Source: a virus. Taken from it: a stretch of 54,107 bases of DNA. This document shows, piece by piece, positions 21,775 through 35,179 of the stretch. Made by a program: the position numbers and the translations under genes. The first letter of the stretch is position 1. Every line of letters begins with the position of its first letter. Below the pieces are notes generated by a model, which was given only the letters and a program-made list of their open reading frames with translations, did no database searches and was not told where the DNA came from. The stretch is from IMG/VR virus record IMGVR_UViG_3300005617_000340, positions 1 through 54,107 of that record; one strand, written 5' to 3'.

Positions 21775-21786
21775 TTCGAGGATGCT

Positions 21787-22032
21787 ATGAAAGAAGTTGA
21801 AAACAAACACGCAAAAGAGATATTCGAAAAACGCAAACAGATCGATCTTCTACACCAGGAAATAAACGACATTGCAAAATCTGTCCTGCCAGATTTTCAT
21901 TTCTTGGACTACAAAGTATCGACGTTCTGGTCTTGCGAAAAGAGTCCTATAGGCGTTTGTGTGTTTCATTTGAATCAGTGGGGACATACAACCGAATGCC
22001 GCTTTTGCGGAGATCCAGAGGAACGAAAATGA
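21787..22032 (+). CDS. Hypothetical protein with CxxC (81 aa)
   Basis: 81 residues from MKEVENKHAKEIFEKRKQID. Helical N-terminus, then FWSCEKSPIGVCVFHL and HTTECRFCGD, a four-Cys set that may bind zinc. The ATG follows tRNA-Met by 12 bases. Overlaps the next gene (ATGA). Confidence 0.68.
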   Translation: MKEVENKHAKEIFEKRKQIDLLHQEINDIAKSVLPDFHFLDYKVSTFWSCEKSPIGVCVFHLNQWGHTTECRFCGDPEERK

Positions 22033-22244
22033 AAAACGGAGCTAGCTTTCGAATCGTAGATCTGAATTCCAACAAGAAATGGGACGTCGAAGTAATTCAA
22101 GGTCGGCGCCAGCACCGCACAGAATACGGCGAGTCGATCGACAACCACTGTGACGGCGCAATCAGCGAGAGCGAATCACAAATCAGTGAAGAGACGCACT
22201 CGAACATTCGGTACGTAAGGAATCCATCTGATATTTCCCGGTAG
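22029..22244 (+). CDS. Hypothetical protein (71 aa), stop inside tRNA-Asn
   Basis: 71 residues from MKNGASFRIVDLNSNKKWDV. Polar, beta-like start then an acidic Ser/Glu-rich tail. The TAG stop (22242-22244) is bases 8-10 of tRNA-Asn. Confidence 0.65.
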   Translation: MKNGASFRIVDLNSNKKWDVEVIQGRRQHRTEYGESIDNHCDGAISESESQISEETHSNIRYVRNPSDISR

Positions 22245-22307
22245 CTCAGTTGGTAGAGCGCGCGGCTGTTAACCGCGATGTCGCAGGTTCGACCCCTGCC
22301 CGGGGAG
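22235..22307 (+). tRNA. tRNA-Asn(GTT) 1
   Basis: Acceptor TTCCCGG/CCGGGGA, anticodon stem CGCGG/CCGCG with loop CTGTTAA, T arm GCAGG-TTCGACC-CCTGC, G73. Contains the stop codon of the preceding gene. Confidence 0.92.
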
Positions 22308-22310
22308 CAT

Positions 22311-22383
22311 TGTAGGGTCGTTTAATTGGCAAGACGCTTGATTGTTAATCAAGTTATTGGGGGTTCGAGTCCCTCCCCTACAG
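22311..22383 (+). tRNA. tRNA-Asn(GTT) 2
   Basis: Acceptor TGTAGGG/CCCTACA, anticodon stem CTTGA/TCAAG with loop TTGTTAA, T loop TTCGAGT, G73. A second, clearly non-identical Asn tRNA. Confidence 0.92.
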
Positions 22384-22392
22384 CCATCTAGT

Positions 22393-22470
22393 GACACCGG
22401 AGTAATGGGTTGCCAACCCCATCGGTTTGATCAACCGTAGTTTCAATATGAGGCTTAAAACACCGGGGTC
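22393..22470 (+). ncRNA. Structured spacer RNA e
   Basis: Outer stem GACACCGG/CCGGGGTC (one mismatch) enclosing two hairpins: GGGTTG/CAACCC-like at 22407 and CGGTT-TGATC-AACCG at 22432. Multibranched 78-base RNA between tRNA-Asn and tRNA-Pro. Confidence 0.45.
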
Positions 22471-22479
22471 CAGTTCTAT

Positions 22480-22554
22480 CTGGAAGTACGATAGCCAGGT
22501 CAATCGGCATGTTTCGGGAACATGAAATCGTGGGTTCGAATCCCACCTTCCAGA
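22480..22554 (+). tRNA. tRNA-Pro(CGG)
   Basis: Acceptor CTGGAAG/CTTCCAG, anticodon stem CATGT/ACATG with loop TTCGGGA, T arm GTGGG-TTCGAAT-CCCAC, A73. Confidence 0.92.
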
Positions 22555-22564
22555 CTTTCTGTAT

Positions 22565-22637
22565 CGGAGTGTAGCCTAGAGGCTCAGGCACTCGGTTTGG
22601 GGCCGAGATCACGCAGGTTCGAATCCTGCCACTCCGA
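22565..22637 (+). tRNA. tRNA-Pro(TGG)
   Basis: Acceptor CGGAGTG/CACTCCG, anticodon stem CTCGG/CCGAG with loop TTTGGGG, A73. Confidence 0.92.
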
Positions 22638-22639
22638 CT

Positions 22640-22891
22640 ATGCCTAAAGAAGAAACAATCAATCTAGATCTCTACCAGTCCACAGCAATCAGACCAGGAG
22701 TCTATCGACACTACAAAGGCAATCACTATCGAGTGATTGGCGAAGTAGTCTTGGACGGACCTAGAACACCAATGGTTCTGTATATTCCTCTCTATGGAAA
22801 AGGTGAACCAACAGTGCGTGATAAAGCAGAGTTCTTGTCGTTGATTGGTGAAGCAGATCAAGTGAGACGTTTTGAATTTGTACACGATTGA
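22640..22891 (+). CDS. DUF1653 family protein
   Basis: 83 residues, MPKEETINLDLYQ..., with RPGVYRHYKGNHYRVIGEVV, VLYIPLYG and a closing RRFEFVHD as in DUF1653, a small beta protein of unknown role found in many bacteria and phages. Starts two bases after tRNA-Pro and stops right at the start of tRNA-Ala. Confidence 0.88.
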   Translation: MPKEETINLDLYQSTAIRPGVYRHYKGNHYRVIGEVVLDGPRTPMVLYIPLYGKGEPTVRDKAEFLSLIGEADQVRRFEFVHD

Positions 22892-22965
22892 GGGTCCGTA
22901 GCTCTAACTGGCAGAGCGCTGGTTTTGCACTCCAGAGGATGTGAGTTCGAATCTCACCGGATCCA
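22892..22965 (+). tRNA. tRNA-Ala(TGC)
   Basis: Acceptor GGGTCCG/CGGATCC, anticodon loop TTTGCAC (closing pair T-T), T arm GTGAG-TTCGAAT-CTCAC, A73. Confidence 0.9.
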
Positions 22966-22968
22966 TTT

Positions 22969-23041
22969 GGGGCCTTAATGTTAATTGGCAGCATGTCAGT
23001 GTCGCATACTGAATGTATGGGTTCAAATCCCATAGGTTCCA
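22969..23041 (+). tRNA. tRNA-Ala(CGC)
   Basis: Acceptor GGGGCCT/AGGTTCC, anticodon stem TCAGT/ACTGA with loop GTCGCAT, T loop TTCAAAT, A73. Divergent D arm. Confidence 0.82.
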
Positions 23042-23055
23042 TTCTTCTCTTGCTT

Positions 23056-23077
23056 TGTTGTATCGCCTATGATACAA
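23056..23077 (+). promoter_or_regulatory. Putative operator, perfect dyad (copy B)
   Basis: GTTGTATC and GATACAAC flank gcctat, an 8-bp perfect inverted repeat just before the gene at 23085. Shares TCGCCTATGA with the copy at 14327. Confidence 0.45.
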
Positions 23078-23084
23078 CCGCCCT

Positions 23085-23411
23085 ATGAACGATTTGATTT
23101 ACAAGGGCATTGTCTTTGGTGTGAAAGGCAAGAACAGAGCCGTAGCGCCCAACGATCTCGTAGAATTAGTCGTTGGGAATGTCCTAGCTGAAATCCCAGG
23201 AATACAAGTCAGACAAGTAAAGATTCATCCAGATGGAAGTCTGGAAGCTTGGGGAGAATTAGCTCGGAAGCACCCGAGAGGCAAACCATTTGTTGAATCT
23301 GCTCTTGAGGAAATACGACTGATTCTTGATGGCGCCGGCTTCATCGTATCGGCAATAGACGCCGACATAGATGATGTCGAGTTAGATAGAGGCCCAACAG
23401 CGTTGGATTAG
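23085..23411 (+). CDS. Hypothetical protein (108 aa)
   Basis: 108 residues, MNDLIYKGIVFGVKGKNRAV..., alternating beta and helix (LARKHPRGKPFVESALEEIRLIL, AIDADIDDVELD). No known motif. Preceded by the dyad at 23056 and followed four bases later by tRNA-Arg(CCT). Confidence 0.72.
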   Translation: MNDLIYKGIVFGVKGKNRAVAPNDLVELVVGNVLAEIPGIQVRQVKIHPDGSLEAWGELARKHPRGKPFVESALEEIRLILDGAGFIVSAIDADIDDVELDRGPTALD

Positions 23412-23414
23412 ATC

Positions 23415-23488
23415 GGGGGTGTAACTCAAATGGACAGAGTACAGGTTTCCTAAACCTGCTGTTGCGGGTTCGAGTCCCGCCATCCCCT
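23415..23488 (+). tRNA. tRNA-Arg(CCT)
   Basis: Acceptor GGGGGTG/CATCCCC, anticodon stem CAGGT/ACCTG with loop TTCCTAA, T loop TTCGAGT, U73. Confidence 0.92.
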
Positions 23489-23506
23489 TAACATTGAAGC
23501 CCGGGT

Positions 23507-23606
23507 GCTGGTCTAATCCTTTGAAAGTAGGATTCGGGAGGAACGATTAGCAGGGGCCGGCTAGCTGCTAGTCGCTGGCTAAGAAGGAACCCCTTAGCGG
23601 ACCAGC
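23507..23606 (+). ncRNA. Structured spacer RNA f
   Basis: 100 bases closed by GCTGGTC/GACCAGC with at least two inner hairpins: AATCCT/AGGATT (23515-23535) and GCTAAG/CTTAGC (around 23578-23597). Located between tRNA-Arg and a small gene. Unknown class. Confidence 0.5.
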
Positions 23607-23615
23607 TTGAACATT

Positions 23616-23753
23616 ATGGAAAAGCAAATCTGTGAAGTCTGTAACGAAGAGATCGGACCAAAAGAATTCCTATGCGGCTGTGAAAGATGCGCCCGCCTGT
23701 TTGGTCCGTGCTGCAATACAGAATCAGACAACTACTGTGTTGATTGCGCGTGA
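23616..23753 (+). CDS. Small zinc-finger-like protein (45 aa)
   Basis: MEKQICEVCNEEIGPKEFLC..., 45 residues with nine Cys in CxxC-like pairs (CEVC, CGCERC, CC, CVDC), a compact binuclear zinc finger. Starts 10 bases after structured RNA f. Confidence 0.62.
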   Translation: MEKQICEVCNEEIGPKEFLCGCERCARLFGPCCNTESDNYCVDCA

Positions 23754-23760
23754 GGACAGA

Positions 23761-23958
23761 ATGAAAGAATTCACAATAAGATTGAAAATCAACGATTTGA
23801 TTATTCCGATATCAGTCAAGGGAGAGTGCATTTCAATAGAAGAAGGCAATCTCTTGGTCATCGCGAATAACGAACTTATATGGGCGGCTGCTCCTGGTCA
23901 TTGGGCGACGTTTGCAGAAGAGTCGACTGCCCATCCAGCAGCCGAGATAGAAAGTTAA
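23761..23958 (+). CDS. Small hypothetical protein (65 aa)
   Basis: 65 residues from MKEFTIRLKINDLIIPISVK with GAGG upstream. Beta-rich (GECISIEEGNLLVIANNEL). The stop overlaps, tail to tail, the stop of the leftward gene at 23955. Confidence 0.65.
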   Translation: MKEFTIRLKINDLIIPISVKGECISIEEGNLLVIANNELIWAAAPGHWATFAEESTAHPAAEIES

Positions 23959-24113
23959 TCGGGAAGAACGGCCCCGGTGACAGGATCCCGGTTGAGATAG
24001 AAAGTTGCCTTGCCTTCCAGATCAATGAAAGCAATCCAACTCATATCTTCCGGTTCAATCCAGCCAGCCCAATGATCGTTCTGCGAATAGCGGCCGACTT
24101 TGATGTTCTGCAT
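23955..24113 (-). CDS. Small leftward protein (52 aa)
   Basis: MQNIKVGRYSQNDHWAGWIE..., 52 residues ending DPVTGAVLPD on the minus strand within an otherwise rightward block. The phrases WIEPEDMSWIAFID and TFYLNRD resemble small phage proteins I recall, which makes it credible despite a weak ribosome site. Confidence 0.6.
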   Translation of the reverse strand: MQNIKVGRYSQNDHWAGWIEPEDMSWIAFIDLEGKATFYLNRDPVTGAVLPD

Positions 24114-24127
24114 GGAGGTAGCCTATC

Positions 24128-24322
24128 ATGATCGCTCAAAAGGCAAAAGCAGGTTATCTCATTCTCTGTATCATAGGTGGCTGCTTGATGATTGGCATGA
24201 CTTTAATAGCCGCCTTTTTCAGGATCGAGAGTGTCCTTATCAAGATTATTCTTTCCGCAATTATAGTGATTGGTTGTGCTTGTTTCGCAATAGGATTTTA
24301 CAAACAAAATATGGTTGGGTAG
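24128..24322 (+). CDS. Two-helix membrane protein, stop inside tRNA-Phe
   Basis: 64 residues with two transmembrane helices (GYLILCIIGGCLMIGMTLIA and IILSAIIVIGCACFAIGF). Its TAG stop (24320-24322) is bases 8-10 of tRNA-Phe. Function unknown. Confidence 0.7.
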   Translation: MIAQKAKAGYLILCIIGGCLMIGMTLIAAFFRIESVLIKIILSAIIVIGCACFAIGFYKQNMVG

Positions 24323-24389
24323 CTCATTTTGGAAGAGCGCTGGTCTGAAAAACCAGAGGTGGCGAGTTCGAATCTCGCTCCAACCACCA
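24313..24389 (+). tRNA. tRNA-Phe(GAA), CCA encoded
   Basis: Acceptor GGTTGGG/TCCAACC, anticodon stem CTGGT/ACCAG with loop CTGAAAA, A73 followed by an encoded CCA. Overlaps the end of the preceding gene. Confidence 0.93.
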
Positions 24390-24408
24390 TTTCTAAACGG
24401 AGGCAACA

Positions 24409-25069
24409 ATGGAAACAGCAGTCATTGAAGTGCGAGCGGCAGAGGGCGGTGACGACGCCAAGCTGCTTGTAACCGACCAAATCAGAGCCTATATGTATGC
24501 CGCGCAGCGGAGGCATCTTTAGGGTTGAGCTCATAGACGAACGGCCAGGATTTGCAGCATTGACGCTCGAAGGCCCTAAAGCCTATGAGATATTCAAACA
24601 AGAAGCAGGCGGGCACCGATGGCAAAGAATTCCTCCAACTGAAAAACGTGGCAGAGTCCAGACGTCAACCGTCACAGTAGCGATCTTTGAAATCAAAGAT
24701 AGTAAGAATCCTGATTTAACGGACATCGAGATCCGAACGACCCGCGGTACTGGTCCAGGAGGGCAGCATAAGAACACAACAGAAAGTTGTGTGATTGCAA
24801 CCCACCGTCCAACCGGACTACAAGCCAGAGCAGATATGCGCTCTCAACATCAAAGCAAAGCGATGGCACTGAAGATCCTGACTGCCAAACTCTTAGACAG
24901 AGACAAGCAGATAACACAGGAGACGCAAGCAGCCGATCGACGAAAGCAGGTTGGAAGCGGAATGCGTGGTGATAAAATCAGGACATACAGCAGCCGGCAC
25001 AATCATGTGGTGGATCATCGCACAGGAAAGCGCTGGAAACTAAACGCCTGGATACGCGGAGAATGGTAA
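24409..25069 (+). CDS. Short RF1-like peptide chain release factor, made by +1 frameshift at CUU UAG
   Basis: Strong ribosome site (ACGGAGG) then METAVIEVRAAEGGDDAKLL, matching the EIRAGxGGDEA region of RF1/RF2. Frame 0 stops at UAG 24520-24522 right after CUU 24517-24519. The +1 frame continues RVELIDERPGFAALTL... to 25069, giving a 219-residue protein. It has GGHRWQRIPPTEKRGRVQTS (P-x-T as in RF1, not SPF as in RF2) and GPGGQHKNTTES (GGQ peptidyl-release motif), then a basic C-terminus. The N-terminal RF domain 1 is absent. The junction carries GGAGG, three bases, CUU, stop, as in bacterial prfB. Expected to release peptides at UAG/UAA and to sense its own activity at the UAG. Domain-1-less relatives (RF-H/ICT1 type) act in ribosome rescue, which is an alternative role. 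Confidence 0.9.
24508..24522 (+). promoter_or_regulatory. Programmed +1 frameshift site
   Basis: CGGAGG (internal Shine-Dalgarno) followed by CAU, then CUU and UAG. Spacing from the Shine-Dalgarno to the slippery CUU equals that in E. coli prfB, where the stop is UGA. Skipping the U of UAG puts ribosomes in the downstream frame. Confidence 0.85.
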
Positions 25070-25072
25070 TAT

Positions 25073-25144
25073 TGCGGGGTAGCTTAATGGTAGAGCGCCT
25101 GTCTTTGGAACAGGTCTATGAGAGTTCGACCCTCTCCCCCGTAG
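25073..25144 (+). tRNA. tRNA-Gln(TTG)
   Basis: Acceptor TGCGGGG/CCCCGTA, anticodon stem CCTGT/ACAGG with loop CTTTGGA, T arm GAGAG-TTCGACC-CTCTC, G73. Confidence 0.92.
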
Positions 25145-25148
25145 CTTT

Positions 25149-25222
25149 GGTCCTGTAGGTTAGATGGATAAACCGCAGCCCTGCGAAGGCTGAGAGCGCA
25201 GGTTCGAGTCCTGCCAGGATCA
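25149..25222 (+). tRNA. tRNA-Arg(GCG)
   Basis: Acceptor GGTCCTG/CAGGATC, anticodon stem CAGCC/GGCTG with loop CTGCGAA, A73. G34 Arg tRNA for CGC/CGU instead of the usual bacterial ACG. Confidence 0.9.
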
Positions 25223-25228
25223 TTTGAT

Positions 25229-25301
25229 GCCGGTGTAGCTCAGTTGGCAGAGCGCCAGTTTTGTAAATTGGATGTCGGGGGTTCGAAGCCCTCCACCGGC
25301 C
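25229..25301 (+). tRNA. tRNA-Thr(TGT)
   Basis: Acceptor GCCGGTG/CACCGGC, anticodon stem CCAGT/ATTGG with loop TTTGTAA, T loop TTCGAAG. Confidence 0.92.
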
Positions 25302-25322
25302 TATTTCTGAAGGGAGAATAAT

Positions 25323-25526
25323 ATGATCCTCGAAGGCGTCCTTTTAGCTAACGTCCTACACAGCATAATGTGGTATGACTACACTGAAAAGGGGTTCCAA
25401 TTTACGAAAGGAGGATCGAACATGCAAAAGCCCGAAGAGACCAATGAAGTTGTCTCTAACGAACTCGAACTCGAGATCGAAGAGATTGAAGAGATGATCG
25501 CTCCCGGCGCAATGTTGTCTGACTGA
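25323..25526 (+). CDS. Small acidic protein with two in-frame starts
   Basis: 67 residues from 25323 (AAGGGAG upstream). A second in-frame ATG at 25422 has a perfect AAAGGAGG site and would give 34 residues, MQKPEETNEVVSNELELEIE... The C-terminus (EEIEEMIAPGAMLSD) is strongly acidic and leader-peptide-like, but no modifying enzyme is nearby, so a RiPP call is not supported. Confidence 0.6.
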   Translation: MILEGVLLANVLHSIMWYDYTEKGFQFTKGGSNMQKPEETNEVVSNELELEIEEIEEMIAPGAMLSD

Positions 25527-25531
25527 AAGCC

Positions 25532-25596
25532 GTGCTGTAGATCGCCAGCGTGGTCCCTAATGATCCTAGTACGGCGCGGTTGTCGATCTACAGCAC
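25532..25596 (+). ncRNA. Structured spacer RNA g, 13-bp perfect stem
   Basis: GTGCTGTAGATCG pairs perfectly with CGATCTACAGCAC around a 39-base apical region (CCAGCGTGG ... CGGCGCGG). It has only a short TTTA after it, so a terminator is unlikely. Lies between a small gene and tRNA-Gly. Confidence 0.5.
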
Positions 25597-25602
25597 TTTA
25601 AT

Positions 25603-25674
25603 GCGGGTGAAGCTCAACGGTCGAGCACTAGCCTTCCAAGCTAGGTCTTGCGGGTTCGAATCCCGTCACCCGCT
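25603..25674 (+). tRNA. tRNA-Gly(TCC)
   Basis: Acceptor GCGGGTG/CACCCGC, anticodon stem CTAGC/GCTAG with loop CTTCCAA, T arm GCGGG-TTCGAAT-CCCGT, U73. Confidence 0.92.
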
Positions 25675-25683
25675 TACTTCTTT

Positions 25684-26082
25684 ATGACACCAAACGAACA
25701 ACTGCAAGCAATCTACGATTCCCTACCGACCATAGAGTGCCAACGAAAATGCCGCGCGGCATGTGGTCCCATATCAATGTCCAACATTGAATGGACTCGA
25801 CTTCGAGAAGCGACGTTCTTCCGCACCCTGGAAGGCGAGCGATTAAACAACACCGAGATCCTTTTAGTCTCGAACAGCGAAGGACGAGTCGATGGCGACA
25901 TTGCCTGTCCTCTCCTGACCATAGACGGCCGCTGTTCAGTCTATAAGCATCGACCCCTGATCTGTCGTCTATTCGGAGTCGTAAAGAAATTACAGTGTCC
26001 ATTCGGATGCGAGCCTTCAAGATGGCTCTCTGACGAAGAAGCATTCAAAATGCTCGAACAGATAAGGACATTGGAATTATGA
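25684..26082 (+). CDS. YkgJ-type (CxxCxxCC) metal-binding protein
   Basis: 132 residues from MTPNEQLQAIYDSLPTIECQ. N-terminal ECQRKCRAACG and the ACPLLTIDGRCSVYKHRPLI-CRLFG block with a closing CPFGC fit the YkgJ/UPF0153 zinc- or iron-chelating family. Family role is metal binding, mechanism unclear. Overlaps the next gene (ATGA). Confidence 0.85.
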   Translation: MTPNEQLQAIYDSLPTIECQRKCRAACGPISMSNIEWTRLREATFFRTLEGERLNNTEILLVSNSEGRVDGDIACPLLTIDGRCSVYKHRPLICRLFGVVKKLQCPFGCEPSRWLSDEEAFKMLEQIRTLEL

Positions 26083-26330
26083 AAGTAACAAGCAGCGAAA
26101 AAATATGCACGGAATGGCGAGTCGACTTGCGAGTCAATGGATTTTATAAAGAAATCCTCGATGGCAAAGCACTATTCAAGTGGTGCTGCGGACGCCGGAT
26201 GCGGAGAATTTCGGGATACCAACAAGTTAGGGGAAAGACTTATCATTTAGGATACGGCACTCCATTAGTTGTTGGTTGGTATTGCGAAGTTTGTGAAAGA
26301 AGAGAAGAGAATTCAGCAGAAATGCTATAA
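26079..26330 (+). CDS. Hypothetical protein with Cys pairs (83 aa)
   Basis: 83 residues, MKVTSSEKICTEWRVDLRVN..., with WCCGRRM and CEVCERR, a likely zinc ribbon. The stop abuts tRNA-Val. Confidence 0.68.
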   Translation: MKVTSSEKICTEWRVDLRVNGFYKEILDGKALFKWCCGRRMRRISGYQQVRGKTYHLGYGTPLVVGWYCEVCERREENSAEML

Positions 26331-26407
26331 GCCCGGTTAGCTCAACCAGGTAGAGCGCTGGTCCTACAAACCAGATGTTATAGGTTCAACTCCTATACCG
26401 GGTACCA
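26331..26407 (+). tRNA. tRNA-Val(TAC) with C33, CCA encoded
   Basis: Acceptor GCCCGGT/ACCGGGT, anticodon stem CTGGT/ACCAG with loop CCTACAA (C at position 33), T arm ATAGG-TTCAACT-CCTAT, A73 then encoded CCA. The only Val tRNA in the window. Confidence 0.85.
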
Positions 26408-26411
26408 TTTT

Positions 26412-26648
26412 ATGAATGAAACGCCGCTGAGTGACGAGCAGTTAAATCTCGTCTGTAAGATAGGACAAGGCGACAACTGTTGTAGCTATATCGCCTGCCT
26501 GCCACCGTTCGAATTCGTGTGCGCCAAACAAATGCCAGACATCTTCTTAGCCATAGAGCGACGGAGAGCGGAAGGAACAATGTCAGCTAAGGGCGACAAT
26601 TGCTCTGGACCCCCAAACTACATCGCGAGGATCGAAAATGCAGTGTGA
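26412..26648 (+). CDS. Hypothetical protein (78 aa)
   Basis: 78 residues, MNETPLSDEQLNLVCKIGQG..., five Cys, no membrane segment. Overlaps the next gene by 11 bases. No family recognised. Confidence 0.65.
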   Translation: MNETPLSDEQLNLVCKIGQGDNCCSYIACLPPFEFVCAKQMPDIFLAIERRRAEGTMSAKGDNCSGPPNYIARIENAV

Positions 26649-26928
26649 TCAATGTGAAGGAATCGCTGTCTGGGATGGTTGTTCAATGAGCACATTAATG
26701 GGTGCTATGTACAATCTCAAAACCGGACACAAACATGATGACAACTGTCTAACTAGAATCTATGTTTGCAACCAGAATTCGGAGCATCAGATAAAGGTCA
26801 GCATACGCCGACGATGCGAAACACCCGGTTGCGAATGGCGTGGAAAAGAAACTTGCTTTTGCCATCCCGGTACAAAACTTGATGATGGCCTGACTAAGGA
26901 AAGTCATGAAGGACACTCAAACGATTAA
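26638..26928 (+). CDS. Cys-rich hypothetical protein (96 aa)
   Basis: 96 residues, MQCDQCEGIAVWDGCSMS..., with CDQC, CETPGCEWRG and CFCH, probably two zinc sites. Overlaps both neighbours. Confidence 0.65.
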   Translation: MQCDQCEGIAVWDGCSMSTLMGAMYNLKTGHKHDDNCLTRIYVCNQNSEHQIKVSIRRRCETPGCEWRGKETCFCHPGTKLDDGLTKESHEGHSND

Positions 26929-27478
26929 GGCAGTACTCAACAAAGAGCAATTGAAGACAACAGAGTCGGTCGGGCGCCGACGAGTGGAATACGCGATCAA
27001 CCACGGTCTTAGAAAGACACGAGGCGGTCTCGATCCTCATGAACGCGGCGCCGCCGAACGACACATTCTCGGAGCGGCATCAGAATACGCAGTAGCGTGG
27101 AAGACCAATCTCTTCTGGCATGAACACATCGGCGACATCGATGCGCGTGATGTAGGCGATCTGATCGAAGTGAGATATGTAAATGATTGGGAACGACGTT
27201 TGATCTTGCATGAGGACAGCGCAGACGACGCACCATTTGTTCTCGTAGTCGCCGAACCGCCAGTCTTTACATTGCGTGGTTGGATAATGGCCTCGGATGG
27301 CAAGCGCAAAGACTGGTGGCAAGATCCAACGAGGAACGGACGTCACGCCTTCTTCGTACCAACGAACCAGTTGAGACCTATGGTAGAGATATTCTGGGTC
27401 ATTGAAGATTTCCGTACCGCTCGTCTCAACGCAACTGTGCCGCCGCGCGCCGCAGCCGGCACCGAATGGTTTAGCTGA
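26906..27478 (+). CDS. Conserved phage hypothetical protein (190 aa)
   Basis: 190 residues, MKDTQTIKAVLNKEQLKTTE... The order ERHILGAASEYAVAW, DVGDLIEVRYV, RRLILHEDSADDAPFVLVV, RGWIM and KDWWQDP...AFFVP matches a protein common in phages that I recall as having a nuclease-like alpha/beta fold. Catalysis not proven. Confidence 0.72.
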   Translation: MKDTQTIKAVLNKEQLKTTESVGRRRVEYAINHGLRKTRGGLDPHERGAAERHILGAASEYAVAWKTNLFWHEHIGDIDARDVGDLIEVRYVNDWERRLILHEDSADDAPFVLVVAEPPVFTLRGWIMASDGKRKDWWQDPTRNGRHAFFVPTNQLRPMVEIFWVIEDFRTARLNATVPPRAAAGTEWFS

Positions 27479-27648
27479 TGGGAACACTGAGCGAGCCTGT
27501 AAAGATCGAAGGCAAATGTCCGAAGTGCGGTGATGATTCTCAACATACGTATCAAATCTGGACTTCGTATGACGAAGCCTTCGAAGATGAAAAGCACAAG
27601 TGCGGAGCCTGCAACTTTATCTGGTGGATTGACGGCATAGATTCATGA
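27478..27648 (+). CDS. Small zinc-ribbon protein (56 aa)
   Basis: MGTLSEPVKIEGKCPKCGDD..., 56 residues with CPKCG and CGAC pairs. Start overlaps the previous TGA and its own TGA overlaps the HNH start, a coupled trio. Confidence 0.7.
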   Translation: MGTLSEPVKIEGKCPKCGDDSQHTYQIWTSYDEAFEDEKHKCGACNFIWWIDGIDS

Positions 27649-27978
27649 CCGAAGTTCGAAAAGGCAAGAGGCGAAAGATTCTCGAACGAGACGGACACCG
27701 ATGCTGGTATTGCGGCCGACCTTTGAAGAGAATTCTAGGCCATCATCCGCACAGATTAGATAAACTCACATTGGATCATCAGGAAGCGAAATGTAGGGGC
27801 GGTTCAAGCTCTATGACCAATCTCGTCGCCTCCTGTTTTGAATGCAACCAGGCCAAAGGACTTAGATGTCGAAGCCTACCGCGCAAAGCTGGAGATGGAC
27901 CTGCCAACCGGCGAGCGTGTTATATTCTGGGGTGAAAAGATGCGCGATGATCTGATCGCCGCACTCTGGTATGAATAG
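27645..27978 (+). CDS. HNH endonuclease with an apparent +1 frameshift
   Basis: Frame 0 gives MTEVRKGKRRKILERDGHR..., with CWYCG, LTLDHQEAKCRGGSSSMTNL and CFECNQAKG (complete HNH core), then an unlikely basic tail to a stop at 27935. Shifting +1 at CTT 27861-27863 continues DVEAYRAKLEMDLPTGERV-IFWGEKMRDDLIAALWYE, which looks like the natural end. AAAGGA stands directly before CTT. Either a mutation, a sequencing error or recoding. The catalytic core is complete in either case. Confidence 0.72.
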
Positions 27979-27986
27979 GAGAGGTC

Positions 27987-28019
27987 ATGCGAAAGTCACG
28001 ACTGAACGCTCCATGTTAG
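27987..28019 (+). CDS. Possible 10-residue leader peptide
   Basis: ATG with GGAGAGG three bases upstream encodes MRKSRLNAPC and stops at TAG 28017-28019, inside the left arm of the hairpin at 28009-28034. Translating ribosomes would open that hairpin. Confidence 0.4.
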   Translation: MRKSRLNAPC

Positions 28020-28034
28020 GAAACTAACATGGAG
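28009..28034 (+). promoter_or_regulatory. GAAA-tetraloop hairpin sequestering a ribosome site
   Basis: CTCCATGTTAG and CTAACATGGAG form a perfect 11-bp stem with a GAAA loop. The right arm contains GGAG of the Shine-Dalgarno for the gene at 28041, so translation is blocked when folded. A protein-binding or leader-coupled translational operator is likely. Confidence 0.7.
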
Positions 28035-28040
28035 GTTCTT

Positions 28041-28343
28041 ATGAGTCGATCGTACAGGAAGCGTCCTTTCTTTGGTGCGTGCAAAGACCAAAGACAGAGC
28101 GAAAAACGAGACAAACAGCTTGCTAATCGCGCGCTGCGACGAGCATTCAGAAACGCAATACATAGAGATCCGGAACTGAGTGTTCCACCATTGATCCGAG
28201 AAGTCAGCAACGTCGACAACTTCGTATCTGATGGTGGCAAAGGCTGGAAAGGATACAGAAAGTATCCAGTTTGGGATGAATTCAATCAGGAGTTCATGAA
28301 GTGGTATGGGCCTGAAGCCTACGCCAAAATGATGAGAAAGTAG
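28041..28343 (+). CDS. Basic hypothetical protein (100 aa)
   Basis: 100 residues from MSRSYRKRPFFGACKDQRQS, placed five bases after the sequestered GGAGG. Very basic N-terminus, then aromatic-rich (GKGWKGYRKYPVWDEF, FMKWYGPEAYAKMMRK). Possibly a nucleic-acid-binding protein that represses its own mRNA (inference from the hairpin). Stop abuts tRNA-Thr. Confidence 0.75.
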   Translation: MSRSYRKRPFFGACKDQRQSEKRDKQLANRALRRAFRNAIHRDPELSVPPLIREVSNVDNFVSDGGKGWKGYRKYPVWDEFNQEFMKWYGPEAYAKMMRK

Positions 28344-28416
28344 GCCGGTGTAGCTCAATTGGCAGAGCGCCTGTTTCGTAAATAGGAGGTTGTGGGTTCG
28401 AGTCCCACCATCGGCC
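28344..28416 (+). tRNA. tRNA-Thr(CGT)
   Basis: Acceptor GCCGGTG/CATCGGC, anticodon stem CCTGT/ATAGG with loop TTCGTAA, T arm GTGGG-TTCGAGT-CCCAC. Confidence 0.92.
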
Positions 28417-28427
28417 CCAGGATTGTT

Positions 28428-28982
28428 ATGAACGTACTAAGCCGACAAGTTCTGTTGCTCAATGCCTCATACGAAGCACTCGGCACAATCAAGACTCGCA
28501 GGGCTATTACTCTCATCTGGAAGGGTGCCGCAGAATTGGTTGTTCGCGATGAGGAAAAAATTGTTCATTCAGCGCATTCCGAATTCCCGGCGCCGAGTGT
28601 CATTCGCCTGACGTGTTATGTGGCAGACATAGCCGGCAAACAGCGACGTTCCAGCACGAAGAAGAACAGAATTCTCATGCGAGACAAGTATCGCTGCCAG
28701 TATTGCGGAGTAAAGGGTGGAAATTTCGACTTGACCGTCGACCACCTGCTTCCGAGATCCCGGGGCGGTACTACTTCTCCCGAGAATCTAGTAGCAGCCT
28801 GCTTTGCATGTAATCAGAGAAAGGGAGACCGAACTCCGGAAGAGGCCAGGATGCCGTTGTTGAAGAATCCTGCGGCCTTAACTTACGGGATGGATCGACA
28901 GATATTGGGACACGAATCTGAGGTTCGTCGCGAGTGGAGAAAGTATCTCTTCCTCGAGGATGCACAAGAGGGCGCGGCATAG
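28428..28982 (+). CDS. HNH endonuclease, bacterial type
   Basis: 184 residues from MNVLSRQVLLLNASYEALGT. An N-terminal RRAITLIWKGAAELV domain, then CQYCGVKGGNFDLTVDHLLP-RSRGG and CFACNQRKGDRTPEEA, the complete HNH core typical of the stand-alone bacterial/phage family. The TAG stop abuts structured RNA h. Confidence 0.9.
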   Translation: MNVLSRQVLLLNASYEALGTIKTRRAITLIWKGAAELVVRDEEKIVHSAHSEFPAPSVIRLTCYVADIAGKQRRSSTKKNRILMRDKYRCQYCGVKGGNFDLTVDHLLPRSRGGTTSPENLVAACFACNQRKGDRTPEEARMPLLKNPAALTYGMDRQILGHESEVRREWRKYLFLEDAQEGAA

Positions 28983-29122: not shown

Positions 29123-29151
29123 TTGACAGGCATAAAAAGATCGGTTACTAT
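29123..29151 (+). promoter_or_regulatory. Sigma70-type promoter of the Ubl/tRNA-mimic/Ro cluster
   Basis: TTGACA (29123-29128), 17-base spacer, TACTAT (29146-29151), ~30 bases before the ATG at 29181. The best promoter match in the right half of the tRNA region. Confidence 0.75.
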
Positions 29152-29180: not shown

Positions 29181-29408
29181 ATGAGCGCAGTATTAAACTA
29201 CGAGAGAGTTCACATTCGGTTCGAAGGTCGTTCTTTGGATCGCTCGGCGCAGGAGTTGGGAATTGTTGGATCTATGTCTGACGAACAGATTCGTCAGAGG
29301 ATTGCAAACGATCTCGACGTCAGCCTTGCAGCGTTGTCCAACTACGCAGTAGACCGCAACTCTGAGTCTGCTTCGTTGACGATCCGACCGGAAGCTGTAT
29401 ACGGCTAA
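29181..29408 (+). CDS. Putative ubiquitin-like small protein
   Basis: 75 residues, MSAVLNYERVHIRFEGRSLD... with AAGGAG upstream. Size, an initial beta hairpin, a helix around SMSDEQIRQRIANDLDV, a closing strand SASLTIRPEAVYG and a C-terminal glycine fit a ubiquitin-like fold, though sequence identity to ubiquitin is not evident. Lies in the same cluster as an E1/ThiF-like adenylyltransferase (34538). Most Ubls end in GG; this ends YG. Fold and conjugation are inferred. Confidence 0.55.
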   Translation: MSAVLNYERVHIRFEGRSLDRSAQELGIVGSMSDEQIRQRIANDLDVSLAALSNYAVDRNSESASLTIRPEAVYG

Positions 29409-29466: not shown

Positions 29467-29489
29467 ATAGATTTTTGAAAGTTGAATTC

Positions 29490-29570
29490 ACCGCGCTACG
29501 GCTTGAGAGGCATACACACAACAATCTTGAAAATTGTGCAAGTGAATCCTGCTTCTCTGAAACGCGCGGT
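29490..29570 (+). ncRNA. tRNA-mimic RNA unit 1
   Basis: Terminal stem ACCGCGC/GCGCGGT, internal loop TACGGC opposite GAAA, second helix GAGAGGCA/TGCTTCTC, then ACAC-containing linker. The cap is a single anticodon-arm-like hairpin ACAAT-CTTGAAA-ATTGT (loop as in a UGA-anticodon Ser tRNA). Smallest of the five units. Confidence 0.72.
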
Positions 29571-29582
29571 TATACAGTTCTC

Positions 29583-29656
29583 GCGGCGGAGTGAAACGGA
29601 AATCATCATTCATGGCTCATAACCATGAGATAGTGGGTTCGACTCCCATCGCCGCA
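29583..29656 (+). tRNA. tRNA-Met(CAT) 3
   Basis: Acceptor GCGGCGG/TCGCCGC, D arm TGA/TCA, anticodon loop CTCATAA, T arm GTGGG-TTCGACT-CCCAT, A73. A complete, normally ordered tRNA standing between tRNA-mimic units 1 and 2. Confidence 0.85.
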
Positions 29657-29679
29657 TCCAATATTAGTTCTTTGAATTC

Positions 29680-29819
29680 GCCGCGCAATGGCAGGATAGG
29701 CTTACATACTAGCTCAACGGTAGAGCGCACCACTATGAATGGTGAGGTTGATGGTTCAAATCCATCGTCGGGGTAAAACTCGAAACTCAGCTTTTCCGAA
29801 ACGCGCGGCAAAATAATTG
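29680..29819 (+). ncRNA. tRNA-mimic RNA unit 2
   Basis: Terminal stem GCCGCGC/GCGCGGC, internal loop AATGGC opposite GAAA, second helix GGATAGGCT/AGCTTTTCC, then TACATAC. The cap is in normal tRNA order: D arm GCTCAACGGTAGAGC, anticodon arm CACCA-CTATGAA-TGGTG (ATG), T arm GATGG-TTCAAAT-CCATC. The acceptor strand does not pair with upstream sequence but folds TCGGG back on CTCGA, so no aminoacylatable end exists. Confidence 0.8.
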
Positions 29820-29871
29820 AATGTGATTGGCTGAGTGATTCTTTGTGGATCACAAAGTCTTTCCCGCACTA

Positions 29872-30002
29872 CGGCATAAGTGGCGTACATACAGCCAAAC
29901 AGAAAGTCACAGGTTCAAATCCTGTATCCCCTGCTTGAGGGGGATTAGCTCAGTGGTAGAGCGTCTGTGTATAATGTTGCAGCCTCTTAGAAACGTGCGG
30001 GA
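29872..30002 (+). ncRNA. tRNA-mimic RNA unit 3, permuted
   Basis: Terminal stem TCCCGCAC/GTGCGGGA (compensatory changes against the other units), TACGGC/GAAA loop, second helix TAAGTGGC/GCCTCTTA, GTACATAC. The cap is circularly permuted: anticodon-stem 3' strand ACAGA, T arm ACAGG-TTCAAAT-CCTGT, acceptor 3' strand ATCCCCT, short loop, acceptor 5' strand GGGGGAT, D arm GCTCAGTGGTAGAGC, then anticodon-stem 5' strand TCTGT, which pairs with ACAGA. The module is open at the anticodon and closed at the acceptor end. Confidence 0.85.
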
Positions 30003-30090
30003 CACCTATTGAAATGGAAACCAGCTTGGTTGTGACGTGTTGAGATTATCTATGAATCAAGACGAGTTGGTTTCCTCATACTTTGATTTT

Positions 30091-30221
30091 TCCGCGCTAT
30101 GGCTGGTCGAGCGTACATACGGAGAAAGACGAGACTCATAATCTTGTTAACCTGGTTCGAATCCAGGGACCGCCACCACTTATGGCGGTCCAAACAAAAA
30201 CGCACTTCCGAAACGCGCGGA
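30091..30221 (+). ncRNA. tRNA-mimic RNA unit 4, permuted, no D arm
   Basis: Terminal stem TCCGCGC/GCGCGGA, TATGGC/GAAA loop, second helix with GCGT/ACGC, GTACATAC. Cap: anticodon arm ACGAGA-CTCATAA-TCTTGT (CAU), T arm CCTGG-TTCGAAT-CCAGG, acceptor 3' strand GACCGCC-A-CCA, CTTA, then acceptor 5' strand GGCGGTC. The encoded CCA is inside a loop. No D arm is visible. Confidence 0.82.
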
Positions 30222-30261
30222 TATGCTTTTAGTATTGAGACAAGAAAAGTCCGGAGGCCCG

Positions 30262-30408
30262 ATGGTGGCGAGAGTCGGCGGTCTTGAAAGTTTGATTCCT
30301 GCAATTCAAGAGGAATTGAATATAACGCACGGACTCTATGAAGCCCTAATAAGGCTGGATCGTACACGAGGCTCTGGATACGAGGGAGCTTATCGAGATG
30401 CTCTCTGA
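30262..30408 (+). CDS. Small hypothetical protein inside the RNA array (48 aa)
   Basis: 48 residues from MVARVGGLESLIPAIQEELN with GGAGG five bases before the ATG. Helical, ends YRDAL. Lies between mimic units 4 and 5 in the same direction. An earlier in-frame start at 30223 lacks a ribosome site. Confidence 0.5.
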   Translation: MVARVGGLESLIPAIQEELNITHGLYEALIRLDRTRGSGYEGAYRDAL

Positions 30409-30470
30409 GGCTTGAAAAGTTGCAAGCTGCGATCCAACAGAAGTTGGATGAAGCTCTTTGATTAAAGTTT

Positions 30471-30590
30471 TCCGCGCTACGGCCGGATTTGTGTACATAC
30501 AATATTCAGTGAGATTCTGAACCCCCTCCACCACTTATGGGGGGGAACCGTAAAGGTTACTGTAAAGACCACAAGTTCAAAACGCGCGGA
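30471..30590 (+). ncRNA. tRNA-mimic RNA unit 5, permuted and degenerate
   Basis: Terminal stem TCCGCGC/GCGCGGA, TACGGC loop, second helix GGATTTGTG/CACAAGTTC, GTACATAC. Cap: a T-arm-like hairpin TTCAG-TGAGATT-CTGAA, acceptor 3' strand ending CCCCCTCCA, CCACTTA loop identical to unit 4, acceptor 5' strand TGGGGGGG, and a small D-like hairpin AACC-GTAAA-GGTT. Anticodon arm not evident. Confidence 0.75.
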
Positions 30591-30639
30591 CCCAATGTTC
30601 CCTTTGCTCCTACACAGTCCATACTTGTACCTCTACTTC

Positions 30640-30670
30640 GGGTCCGCACACGCGGACCCTTTTCTTTTTG
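30640..30670 (+). terminator. Rho-independent terminator after the RNA array
   Basis: GGGTCCGC-ACAC-GCGGACCC perfect 8-bp stem followed by TTTTCTTTTT. Ends the array transcript before the HNH gene, which has its own GGAGG next to the U-tract. Confidence 0.85.
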
Positions 30671-30679
30671 GAGGCCCCC

Positions 30680-31279
30680 ATGTCAGCCAAGAAAGCGTCC
30701 GACAAAAGATTCTATCTCCCTTACTACAAGGACAATCCTGACCGTCCAGTCTATGTCGAAGACATAGGTAATCTTCTGAAGATTTCTGGTGTGATCTTCC
30801 AGGGTATGGGAGCGCACCTGATTTGCCTGACTCCCTCGGGATCGATCTTCAATATAGACGACGCTAATGTTGTCCAGCCTTCTTTCGAAGAGTGGGGCGA
30901 CATCATCCGTCGCTCTGACGATCCGGAAATCTTCATCGGAGACGTCGGCGGTTTGAATAAGATCCTACATAGAAAAGTTCGTTGGGAAATCAGTGGCGTA
31001 ACCCAACAGAAGGTGTGGGCAAGAGACAATTTCAAGTGTATGTACTGCGGCCGGCAGATGGGGGAAGTTCAACTGACCATCGATCATTTCATCCCCTTGG
31101 AGCTAGGCGGCGCCAACGACACAAGCAATTATCTCTCAGCCTGCAAACGTTGTAACAAAGACAAAGGAATGAGAGAACCTCTCGAGTTCTGCACCGATAA
31201 AGGATACGACTATTCGGCATTGGTCAGACACTTGAGAAACTACACCATGTTGAAGGAGACTAATGATACAACTCGGTAG
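30680..31279 (+). CDS. HNH endonuclease with an extra N-terminal domain
   Basis: 199 residues from MSAKKASDKRFYLPYYKDNP, with GGAGG five bases upstream. Residues ~20-105 form an unassigned domain (VYVEDIGNLLKISGVIFQG, IFIGDVGGLNKIL). The C-terminal half is HNH: CMYCGRQMGEVQLTIDHFIP-LELGG and CKRCNKDKGM. Placed between the tRNA-mimic array and the Ro60-like gene; it might cut nucleic acid for that system, or be a mobile nuclease that has settled there. Confidence 0.85.
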   Translation: MSAKKASDKRFYLPYYKDNPDRPVYVEDIGNLLKISGVIFQGMGAHLICLTPSGSIFNIDDANVVQPSFEEWGDIIRRSDDPEIFIGDVGGLNKILHRKVRWEISGVTQQKVWARDNFKCMYCGRQMGEVQLTIDHFIPLELGGANDTSNYLSACKRCNKDKGMREPLEFCTDKGYDYSALVRHLRNYTMLKETNDTTR

Positions 31280-31526: not shown

Positions 31527-33119
<1,593 letters not shown>

Positions 33120-33197: not shown

Positions 33198-33413
33198 ATG
33201 AACATCATAGACGCTCTAAGATGGTCCAAAGAAAATGGCCGCAGTATTAGCCGCGAAGACGGAGTTGGTTGGATTCGATACGGAGATGATTTCGTATTCA
33301 AACTGACTGGTATTGATTTGCTGGCTACTGATTGGATACCAACCGCCGCCTTAGTAGAGGAACTTACAGAAGGAAAATACGAGCACGTAGAAACTTACGA
33401 TGTCGATTCATGA
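33198..33413 (+). CDS. Hypothetical protein (71 aa)
   Basis: 71 residues, MNIIDALRWSKENGRSISRE..., with WIRYGDDFVFKLTG and DWIPTAALVEEL. Small alpha/beta protein, coupled by overlap to the next gene. Unknown. Confidence 0.7.
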   Translation: MNIIDALRWSKENGRSISREDGVGWIRYGDDFVFKLTGIDLLATDWIPTAALVEELTEGKYEHVETYDVDS

Positions 33414-34239
33414 TCTGATAGATAATCTCGCAAAGGCCGAAGAAGATTTCCGCCAAACAACTTTTATGGCTCCGTGTCTGAAGGGAGGCAAGGTAGTTGT
33501 TCGCATTCACGGCCTTATAAGAAGCTTCAGACCAGCACCGGGAGATTTCGAGGGGTGGGGAATATTCAAAGCGAAGAAAGTGCAGGCGAGATTCATAGAA
33601 GAAGCCAGCTATCGAATGATCCAGACCTATGTAGGAAATCTCCAGCAATTGAAATGTCGTTTAATACACAAGCTCAAGGATAGGACGTGGCTCGCCTATC
33701 CACATAATGAATCAGATATGGAACAGAGGTTCTGGTCTCCAGCAGGACCGTTCAAGGTTCATCTTGTGGAGGAAGGCGCGCGGTTGGCCGGCATTCAGGC
33801 CGCGTTCGATGGAGCTCACTTCTGGTATGCAGGACCGGACGAAACAACGGATCCAAGTCTAAGCTCAAAGATGCGCCAGGCATTCGACGCCGGACAGGAA
33901 CCGCGGATACCGGGATTGACTCCAGAAATGAAGACCTGCTACATCCTAGCGGCTGTCGAGGCTAAAGAGTTCGCCAAGATGCGAGACGAAGATCGTCTGA
34001 AAGATGCTCTTTCGCTGGCTGGCGGCACTCTCAATGATTGGGCTGATCGAGGCAATGACTGGATGGTGACGTGGCAAACAAAGGACGGAGAAGTTCATCG
34101 ATCGGTTGTATCCAAAGATCTGACCGTCACCAGTGCTGGTATTTGCCTGAGCGGGCAAGATCGAAAATTCGATCTGCATTCTCTAGTCAAAGTCGTAGAA
34201 GATCGAAATAAAGGATGGGACTACGGATGGGACGATTAG
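33400..34239 (+). CDS. Hypothetical protein in the Ro60/E1 cluster (279 aa)
   Basis: 279 residues. The N-terminal ~170 residues form one domain: GGKVVVRIHGLIRSFRPAPG, FEGWGIFKAKKVQARFIEEA, FWSPAGPFKVHLVEEGARLA, DGAHFWYAG. I recall similar proteins beside ThiF-like enzymes and vWA proteins in other bacteria but cannot name a family. The C-terminal ~70 residues are beta-rich and may be a separate domain. One Cys (APCLKGG) near the N-terminus. Confidence 0.72.
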   Translation: MSIHDLIDNLAKAEEDFRQTTFMAPCLKGGKVVVRIHGLIRSFRPAPGDFEGWGIFKAKKVQARFIEEASYRMIQTYVGNLQQLKCRLIHKLKDRTWLAYPHNESDMEQRFWSPAGPFKVHLVEEGARLAGIQAAFDGAHFWYAGPDETTDPSLSSKMRQAFDAGQEPRIPGLTPEMKTCYILAAVEAKEFAKMRDEDRLKDALSLAGGTLNDWADRGNDWMVTWQTKDGEVHRSVVSKDLTVTSAGICLSGQDRKFDLHSLVKVVEDRNKGWDYGWDD

Positions 34240-34538
34240 ATTTACTCGAGGTTATGGAAACGGCGACTCTGGCGTATCCTGATGAATTCCTAAGTGAGTA
34301 TTACAACGAAGAGGGATTACCCAACCATGTTGCCGGTCTTCCACTTGGAGCAGGCGGCGATACTCTTGCGGAGTTTATCGTCAATGAGCTTTACGAGAAA
34401 TGGAATGAAACCGACGACGAGACTCCCGACCACGAACGAGTAGAACTTTGCGCTGAAGCCATTCGAACCGCCCAGGACGAACTGGATAAGGTCGCAGAAG
34501 CTTTGGAAGATTTTGCAAAGAGACTAAGGAGCAAATAA
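34227..34538 (+). CDS. Acidic helical hypothetical protein (103 aa)
   Basis: 103 residues from MGRLDLLEVMETATLAYPDE. Acidic, helical (HERVELCAEAIRTAQDELDK), LAEFIVNELYEKWNET in the middle. Overlaps the genes on both sides (its TAA overlaps the next ATG), so it is part of the same operon. Confidence 0.7.
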   Translation: MGRLDLLEVMETATLAYPDEFLSEYYNEEGLPNHVAGLPLGAGGDTLAEFIVNELYEKWNETDDETPDHERVELCAEAIRTAQDELDKVAEALEDFAKRLRSK

Positions 34539-35179
34539 TGGCAGACTCAACTCTTCACGAAGAATTATATAGATCAAAGGAGGCCATGAAGCGCTTACAG
34601 ACTTTCAAGGTGCTGGTATGCGGCGCCGGCGCCCTCGGTTCTAATATTCTTGAGTCTCTAGCTCGTCAGGGATTCACGAAGCTGTGCGTTGTAGACTTCG
34701 ATAGAGTCGAAGATCGTAATCTATCAACGCAGCCGTACGGCCGACAAAACATAGGACAGAAGAAAACATCAGCCATCGTGAACAAGATCTACAGGGATCT
34801 CGAAATCGACATCCTATGGCAAGCAGTTCACATGGATGCTGGTAACGCCGGGAAATTCATCAAGGGATGGGATTTGATTGTGGACGCGTTCGACAACGCA
34901 CCAAGCCGCAACATCGTGGCTATCAGAGCGAAGCAAGAGAACATTCCTTGTCTCCATGTAGGGATCGCCGAAGATGGAAATTACTCAGAAGGAGTCTGGA
35001 ATCAGGTCTACTCGATACCAGGTGAGATCGAGGATTCAGAGATCTGCAACTACCCTCTCGCCAGAAACCTAGTTTCCATCACTGTTGGTCTAGCATGCGA
35101 ATTGATCGTACAATTCGCAACAACTGGAGTTCAGAACACATTCACCTTTACATTCAAGGACTTAACGATTAACAGGTAA
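34538..35179 (+). CDS. ThiF/E1-like adenylyltransferase
   Basis: 213 residues. FKVLVCGAGALGSNILESLA is the nucleotide-binding glycine loop; CVVDFDRVEDRNLSTQPYG supplies the D-x-D and conserved Arg/Asn; QKKTSAIV gives the conserved Lys; LIVDAFDNAPSRN is the second acidic motif. A late SEICNYP Cys could be the thioester or metal Cys. There is no separate C-terminal domain, as in minimal bacterial E1s that adenylate the C-terminal Gly of ubiquitin-like or ThiS-like proteins. Candidate partner: the protein at 29181. Confidence 0.88.
   Translation: MADSTLHEELYRSKEAMKRLQTFKVLVCGAGALGSNILESLARQGFTKLCVVDFDRVEDRNLSTQPYGRQNIGQKKTSAIVNKIYRDLEIDILWQAVHMDAGNAGKFIKGWDLIVDAFDNAPSRNIVAIRAKQENIPCLHVGIAEDGNYSEGVWNQVYSIPGEIEDSEICNYPLARNLVSITVGLACELIVQFATTGVQNTFTFTFKDLTINR

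Follow-up and report, generated by a model that had tools for sequence, protein, structure and literature searches.

The window analysed here, the whole 54,107-base phage fragment recorded as IMGVR_UViG_3300005617_000340, contains between positions 29491 and 30589 an array of five RNA units (U1–U5) that share one structural frame and are tipped with different tRNA-derived modules, followed by a gene for a Ro60/TROVE protein (P0001; Table 1). We consider these RNAs very probably to be Y-RNA-like RNAs linked to Ro60. That they act as decoys is a conjecture from the analysis to which we give slightly less than an even chance, while Ro60-associated, Y-RNA-like RNAs with a decoy or bait function, taken as the whole explanation of the array, are judged slightly more likely than not.

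A motif search of the window found the 5' element of the frame in exactly five copies, at positions 29491, 29681, 29864, 30092 and 30472, with a 3' partner that reads GAAACGCGCGG in four units and GAAACGUGCGGG in U3. The frame comprises a 6-bp helix 1, a conserved internal loop, helix 2 and the motif GYNUACANAC, which reads GCAUACACAC in U1. Its 5' strand is CCGCGC, or CCGCAC in U3, where the usual 3' closure AAACGCGCGG is replaced by the covarying partner AAACGUGCGG; the 5' side of the internal loop is UAYGGC, or AAUGGC in U2. In unconstrained free-energy folds, helix 1 was formed in all five units, and the complete succession of helix 1, internal loop, helix 2 and module was obtained for U1, U2, U3 and U5; in U4, helix 1 was present and helix 2 was not the minimum free-energy choice. 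The arms of each unit paired with a mean energy of -19.4 kcal/mol, versus -15.4 kcal/mol for arms swapped between units. The exact five-copy element, together with the full layout in four of the five folds, bears out the preliminary description of the locus as five units on one frame, and the folds and Rfam matches agree with its view that each unit carries a different tRNA-derived module.

The modules differ in content and in topology. U1 contains little beyond one anticodon-type arm, and U2 matched the Rfam tRNA model with 48.8 bits (positions 6–65). In U3 the fold runs through the T arm, the acceptor 3' strand, a short loop, the acceptor 5' strand and the D arm, and is joined to the frame through the anticodon stem. 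Measured against a free acceptor end and a complete cloverleaf, U1–U5 all lack a free acceptor and so do not qualify as functional tRNAs. The normal tRNA-Met that had been placed among the units is present, but it lies between U1 and U2 and not inside a unit. At gathering level, an Rfam search of the window returned tRNA only, and scanning the window-specific motif across IMG/VR revealed no copy.

Table 1. Features of the array region of the window.
Feature	Position	Strand	Basis
Sigma-70-like promoter TTGACA-17-TACTAT, upstream of the 75-amino-acid reading frame and array	29123..29151	+	10/12 consensus matches
Candidate ubiquitin-like modifier of 75 amino acids, conserved, ending in RPEAVYG	29181..29408	+	homologues beside TROVE
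U1: frame, anticodon-type arm (ACAAU-CUUGAAA-AUUGU, loop CUUGAAA), short T-like arm	29491..29569	+	motif, fold
Ordinary tRNA-Met(CAU), between U1 and U2, outside units	29583..29656	+	tRNA search
U2: frame bearing D, anticodon and T arms as a linear tRNA core, without normal acceptor	29681..29808	+	motif, Rfam, fold
U3: frame, YrlA-like circularly permuted tRNA with a short loop capping its 7-bp acceptor	29864..30000	+	motif, Rfam, fold
U4: frame, anticodon arm (CUCAUAA), T arm, reverse-order acceptor closed over ACCA, without D arm	30092..30220	+	motif, Rfam, fold
U5: frame, T arm, 7–8 bp acceptor minihelix closed over ACCA	30472..30589	+	motif, fold
Intrinsic terminator GGGTCCGCACACGCGGACCC and T tract, clean 8-bp GC-rich stem	30640..30669	+	sequence
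Ro60/TROVE protein P0001, 503 amino acids, vWA with conserved DxSxS, T, D (metal ion-dependent adhesion site)	31608..33119	+	Pfam, AlphaFold2, Foldseek
279-amino-acid conserved protein, invariant Cys (GICLSGxDRxFDL), candidate E2-like	33400..34239	+	conservation
ThiF/E1-like adenylyltransferase	34538..35179	+	Pfam ThiF 100 bits; kept in phage and bacterial loci

Among known RNAs, the closest comparison is with the bacterial Y RNA YrlA. An Rfam cmscan matched U3 to YrlA (RF02553) with 32.2 bits (E = 1.8e-4), short of the gathering score (69), and with several mismatched pairs in the stem, while no match to this family was found for U1, U2, U4 or U5. A capped acceptor with the ends on the anticodon side characterises U3, is partly realised in U4 and U5, and is not seen in U1 and U2. 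The likeness to YrlA noted earlier therefore holds for the topology of U3, whose tRNA-like domain is entered from the anticodon side and has a capped acceptor next to a Ro60 gene, but the units fall below the Rfam threshold for YrlA and thus represent a distinct clade. They also differ from YrlA in the stem motif (NUACANAC, UAYGGC/GAAAC), in the tandem arrangement with exchangeable modules that include linear tRNA cores, in the 23S rRNA mimics present in relatives, and in the linkage to a candidate ubiquitin-like/E1 cassette.

The identity of the neighbouring protein was assessed by sequence and by structure prediction. P0001 matched the Pfam vWA_Ro60 model (PF25045) with 33.1 bits (cut-off 27.7), gave no match to a TROVE-domain model, and scored 18.8 bits with the NCBIfam Rsr model (cut-off 900); a profile of the P0001 family found human RO60 in the PDB with E = 2.9e-6. 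AlphaFold2 modelling with a 23-sequence alignment reached a predicted local distance difference test score of 83.6, versus 45 with single-sequence input. In a Foldseek search the top matches of this model were Ro60/Rsr structures, aligned over most of the length with E-values from 2.7e-11 to 1.3e-08 and template modelling (TM) scores of 0.57–0.65 (TM 0.64 for the best match, with E 2.7e-11, and 0.60 for D. radiodurans Rsr; Ro60 of the Thermus phage phiLo also among them). The residues D302, S304, S306, T364 and D388 of the metal ion-dependent adhesion site are invariant across the 23 sequences. On the evidence of the modelled fold, a HEAT-like ring with a vWA domain, the gene at 31608 encodes a real Ro60 homologue, as had been proposed. 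P0001 has this fold and the vWA site in common with D. radiodurans Rsr (2nvo), human Ro60 (9nfa) and the phiLo protein (9l5y), from which it differs in showing only about 15% identity; it belongs to a separate clade of cyanobacterial and huge-phage proteins with 35–50% identity.

The association of such arrays with TROVE genes extends well beyond the window. A viral scan with P0001 as the lone query gave no match, and the sole relative in INPHARED was found in LR756511.1, a 595-kb uncultured phage whose TROVE gene is immediately preceded by an array with 14 or more units (GUCCCCNAC...RCNUACAAAC, closing AACUUGGAC). Scanning IMG/VR with this type of RNA motif alone yielded 14 contigs. TROVE is encoded by all three multi-hit contigs and by one single-hit contig, and a TROVE match is absent from the other ten (L011, L013 and eight more), which are probably chance matches since all of them are single hits. 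Further phage loci were added by a TROVE profile scan, giving 11 together with the window and LR756511.1; arrays are present in every one, upstream of the gene but downstream in L023.

For bacteria, the best 80 of 236 relatives were taken, nearly all from filamentous cyanobacteria and 46–50% identical to P0001, which places P0001 nearer to its bacterial relatives than to those of other phages. A relaxed motif gave 557 matches on the strand of the gene versus 6 on the opposite one, in 78 of the 80 loci, and the matches are concentrated within 3 kb upstream of the TROVE genes. As a safeguard against biased retrieval, an even sample of 194 cyanobacterial genomes was taken irrespective of TROVE. 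The strict motif occurred in 8 of them and TROVE in 16, and all 8 motif-bearing genomes were TROVE-positive (hypergeometric p ~3e-10); seven have at least one match 0.3–2.1 kb upstream of TROVE on the same strand, and in the eighth (G075) the matches are on other contigs. A reversed-pattern control produced single matches in two TROVE-negative genomes. The preliminary description had held that finding the element with no link to TROVE would speak against it; every multi-hit locus of the motif scan, the phage and bacterial loci, and the exact motif in the evenly drawn genomes all point the other way.

A frame-like hairpin, AACUUGGA...UCCCCAA, also directly precedes the TROVE start codon in two loci (L004:19955-19985 and L018:11992-12022), and in L023 (9960-9990) a hairpin AACUUGCGCG... 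stands immediately 5' of it. This position suggests that the TROVE protein may regulate its own synthesis through the frame hairpin. In locus L043, one unit is split by a transposase-like insertion.

Conservation of the RNA structure was evaluated with 209 non-redundant cyanobacterial units selected only on helix-1 pairs 1–4. Pairs 6 and 7 of helix 1 are formed in 98% and 95% of these units, respectively, versus 60% and 58% when the 3' arms were re-dealt, and involve several pair types. The excess is more modest for helix 2, with 6.5 of 7 pairs formed versus 5.7 after shuffling. The internal loops CC[CU]AA/RACUU and the motif NUACA[UCA]AC are conserved in the cyanobacterial units.

Many of the tips imitate tRNA. 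ARAGORN, applied to modules read linearly or after self-joining (permuted), recognised a tRNA in 110 of the 209, whereas controls with reversed or shuffled modules gave 0–3. Modules of the linear type use the CAUAC of the frame as the acceptor 5' strand, which pairs with GUAUG or GUGUG located 3' of the T arm, with at least four of the five pairs formed in 59 of 61 modules. In the permuted type, a capped 7-bp acceptor was found in 27 of 31 modules, the cap being mostly 6 nt long. Both types therefore lack a free CCA end, the former because CAUAC is used as the acceptor strand and the latter because the acceptor is capped. Anticodons corresponding to stop codons (CUA or UUA) are present in 8 of the 77 linear cyanobacterial modules. 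The T loops of several cyanobacterial modules are broken by palindromic inserts (L083:7980, L089:9144, L093:6090).

Other tips in the cyanobacterial units copy 23S rRNA. BLAST matches were obtained for 34 modules (among them L034:2430, L044:4772, L046:8587 and L066:12748) versus 2–3 in controls, nearly all at positions 1915–1947, 2659–2671 and 1096–1137, which we take to be H69–H71, the sarcin–ricin loop and the GTPase-associated centre, respectively. Matches at 1096–1137 occur together with one at 2659–2671 within the same unit. In 28 loci the sarcin–ricin loop text occurs on the strand of the gene, with no occurrence on the opposite strand in the tabulated loci, and a paralogue of L7/L12 is encoded within the array region of 32 cyanobacterial TROVE loci (e.g., L058:8355-8741). 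The large-subunit rRNA covariance model detected a fragment resembling the GTPase centre (46.6 bits, G007:C1:2529711-2529766) outside the rRNA operon and about 13 kb past the edge of the Microcoleus TROVE locus. Among phages, unit L004:16690-17011 agrees with H71 at 17 of 18 nt (E 0.06); this match is weak alone, so that the resemblance relies on the cyanobacterial parallels, and Rfam gave no large-subunit match for this unit alone. A recurrent module, GGUGCGUACNNGGGUUGUACGCUGCAAGCC..., was matched to neither tRNA nor rRNA (L035:9705, L040:9730, L047:9198, L055:5320), and the module AGACCCUAUUAGGUUUAGCCAUAGGUUUACU (L072:9816, L064:9813) resembles by eye 23S AGACCCUAUG..GCUUUACU, a possible fourth rRNA mimic.

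In the explanation that we favour, the neighbouring Ro60 most likely docks on the common stem, comprising helix 1, the internal loop, helix 2 and NUACANAC, and each tip presents a different imitation of a translation RNA, mostly a tRNA body without a usable free CCA end. The RNAs would most likely serve as decoys or baits: the Ro60 particle would display copies of RNAs recognised by anticodon nucleases and other ribotoxins, and the attacking enzymes would engage these copies in place of genuine tRNAs and ribosomes, to be titrated or passed to the candidate ubiquitin-like/E1 machinery encoded alongside. Phage translation would in this way be shielded from tRNA-cutting defences of the host, alongside the 39 tRNA genes and a PrfH-like factor. 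In its fullest form, this proposal describes a Ro60 ribonucleoprotein that builds decoys of the translation machinery (tRNA topologies and, in relatives, the factor-binding site with L7/L12 and H69–H71) and is coupled to a ubiquitin-like cassette, a chromosomal anti-ribotoxin system of cyanobacteria adopted by huge phages as counter-defence; in this form we advance it tentatively, as possible rather than probable.

Several observations weigh against the decoy proposal. In some phage relatives (L004, L024, L030) the frame surrounds a complete tRNA whose CCA is encoded, or is capped by a hairpin and inserted at the D-loop region of linear tRNAs that keep their acceptor ends free (L004:15807-16400, L024:8750-9720, L030:6600-7130); a pure decoy would require neither arrangement. 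Comparison with 23S rRNA found no rRNA mimics in the window array, and the window units have UAYGGC/GAAAC as internal loop where CCNAC/RACUU is found in most relatives. Transcription of the array, its binding by Ro60, the decoy action and the toxins targeted are predicted features. The D-loop-inserted frames represent an inside-out version of the Y-RNA-like topology.

Alternatively, the RNAs could have a classical Y RNA role, with modules that tether or gate tRNA- or rRNA-handling enzymes, such as nucleases like PNPase or modification and repair enzymes, to Ro60 in the service of RNA quality control or repair, with no titration of attackers. Rsr is tethered to PNPase by a Y RNA and rsr-yrlBA-rtcBA operons are known (PMC7790460), TROVE proteins of jumbo phages have been proposed to be RNA-repair platforms (PMC7824862), and tRNA bodies attached from different sides would suit different enzymes. 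However, this role does not easily account for copies of the sarcin–ricin loop and the GTPase-associated centre accompanied by an L7/L12 paralogue, which look more like a factor-binding site than like a repair substrate. Since the tips of relatives fall on functional spots of 23S rRNA and the stalk protein of the same site is encoded with them, a bait or decoy is favoured over scaffolding of RNA repair, and we regard the classical role as rather unlikely.

The genes around the array bear on a further possibility. An operon comprising a small Gly-ending protein, the array, TROVE, an invariant-Cys protein and ThiF/E1 is kept across phages and cyanobacteria; neither this operon nor the rRNA-mimic members of the family featured in the preliminary description. 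In the window, the reading frame for the 75-amino-acid protein, likewise absent from that description, sits between the promoter match and the array; its homologues are found beside TROVE in phages and in 64 of the 80 bacterial loci, range from 66 to 95 amino acids, and invariably end in Gly. Searches of Pfam, NCBIfam and the PDB gave no match for this protein, which may be ubiquitin-like to judge by its size, C-terminal Gly and neighbours, and the 279-amino-acid Cys-containing protein had no database match. Homologues of the JAB protease are encoded in 8 phage loci, with Prok-JAB family matches in L004, L024 and L030, and none was found in the window. Partner conjugation genes were detected in about 43–46 of the 80 bacterial loci, within the retrieved stretches. 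The operon thus reads as a candidate ubiquitin-like conjugation cassette, in which family models support the E1 and JAB assignments alone. It has the Gly-ending small protein, ThiF/E1 and JAB neighbours in common with known bacterial ubiquitin-like cassettes (PRTRC, E1-E2/JAB defence) and differs from them in its coupling to Ro60 and an RNA array and in small and Cys proteins that match no known family.

It could be imagined that the RNAs are damage sensors, that is, baits cut by a ribotoxin, with Ro60 detecting the cut and setting off the ubiquitin-like conjugation cassette, in a bacterial guard system taken over by phages. The constant linkage of the array to a C-terminal-Gly protein and an E1-like enzyme, with JAB in part of the phage loci, is in line with this idea, as is the similarity of E1 and JAB to the E1 and JAB models of defence systems. 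Nevertheless, the conjugation partners are found in just over half of the bacterial loci, the ubiquitin-like protein is recognised by size, C-terminal Gly and neighbours only, and we think this scenario improbable.

The frame could also be a processing element (leader, trailer or intron) that is removed, perhaps with Ro60, to release working tRNAs, some of them permuted. The complete CCA-bearing tRNAs inside the frame and the D-loop frames within intact tRNAs of L004, L024 and L030 would fit such precursors; the rRNA-mimic modules, the truncated U1 and U5 without D or anticodon arms, the stop anticodons, and the use of the frame motif itself as an acceptor strand would not, and on these grounds precursors were rejected as the main explanation and are considered very improbable. 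That the array consists of decaying tRNA genes without RNA function, with a spacer repeat in common through chance or homing-nuclease activity, is hardly credible and was likewise rejected: the HNH genes on its flanks and the partial tRNAs among the modules would suit this idea, but the helices covary, the strand bias is strong, the linkage to TROVE crosses phyla, and the frame is preserved while the modules change.

The structure of a phage Ro60 (9l5y) and the tRNA mimicry of YrlA were already known, and jumbo-phage TROVE genes and a tRNA-like partner have been outlined before (PMC7824862). In the open-access literature, which lacks the main specialist papers, we met no description of Ro60 RNAs that form multi-unit arrays with interchangeable tips or that mimic 23S rRNA, nor of such an operon, and we provisionally treat these features as new. 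For the tRNA mimicry of bacterial Y RNAs, one proposed role is competitive inhibition of an anticodon nuclease by YrlA (PMC7790460). With a constant stem and tips that copy varied tRNAs and, in relatives, 23S spots, a general explanation of this mimicry becomes testable, and the array supplies ready-made RNAs for binding assays. Ro60 may hold translation decoys generally, and Ro60, ubiquitin-like conjugation and translation defence could be linked in one operon of phages and cyanobacteria.

The expression signals that had been proposed for the array fared differently. The terminator at 30640 was confirmed, with its clean stem and T tail; the promoter sequence at 29123 exists, but such matches are no commoner in the region than expected by chance (2 found versus 2.5 expected). 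Between U4 and U5 lies a 48-amino-acid reading frame with a GGAGG ribosome site (30262-30408). Genes for HNH endonucleases flank or follow the array (27645-27935, 28428-28982 and 30680-31279), and one occupies the matching place in L031 (8585-9178).

Long tRNA arrays such as the Anabaena trn operon are used under translational stress (PMC10272220). The window and L043 resemble that operon and phage tRNA arrays in having tRNA arrays beside the Ro60 system; the difference is that the framed units are not functional tRNAs, and the connection with the trn operon is one of proximity, seen in some loci only. Of the 39 tRNA genes of the window, 38 lie at positions 14711–28419 with small reading frames between them, and within this tRNA array is a gene for a homologue of a PrfH-like release factor (24497-25069; PCRF and RF-1 domains). 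PrfH is known as a partner of RtcB2 in ribosome repair.

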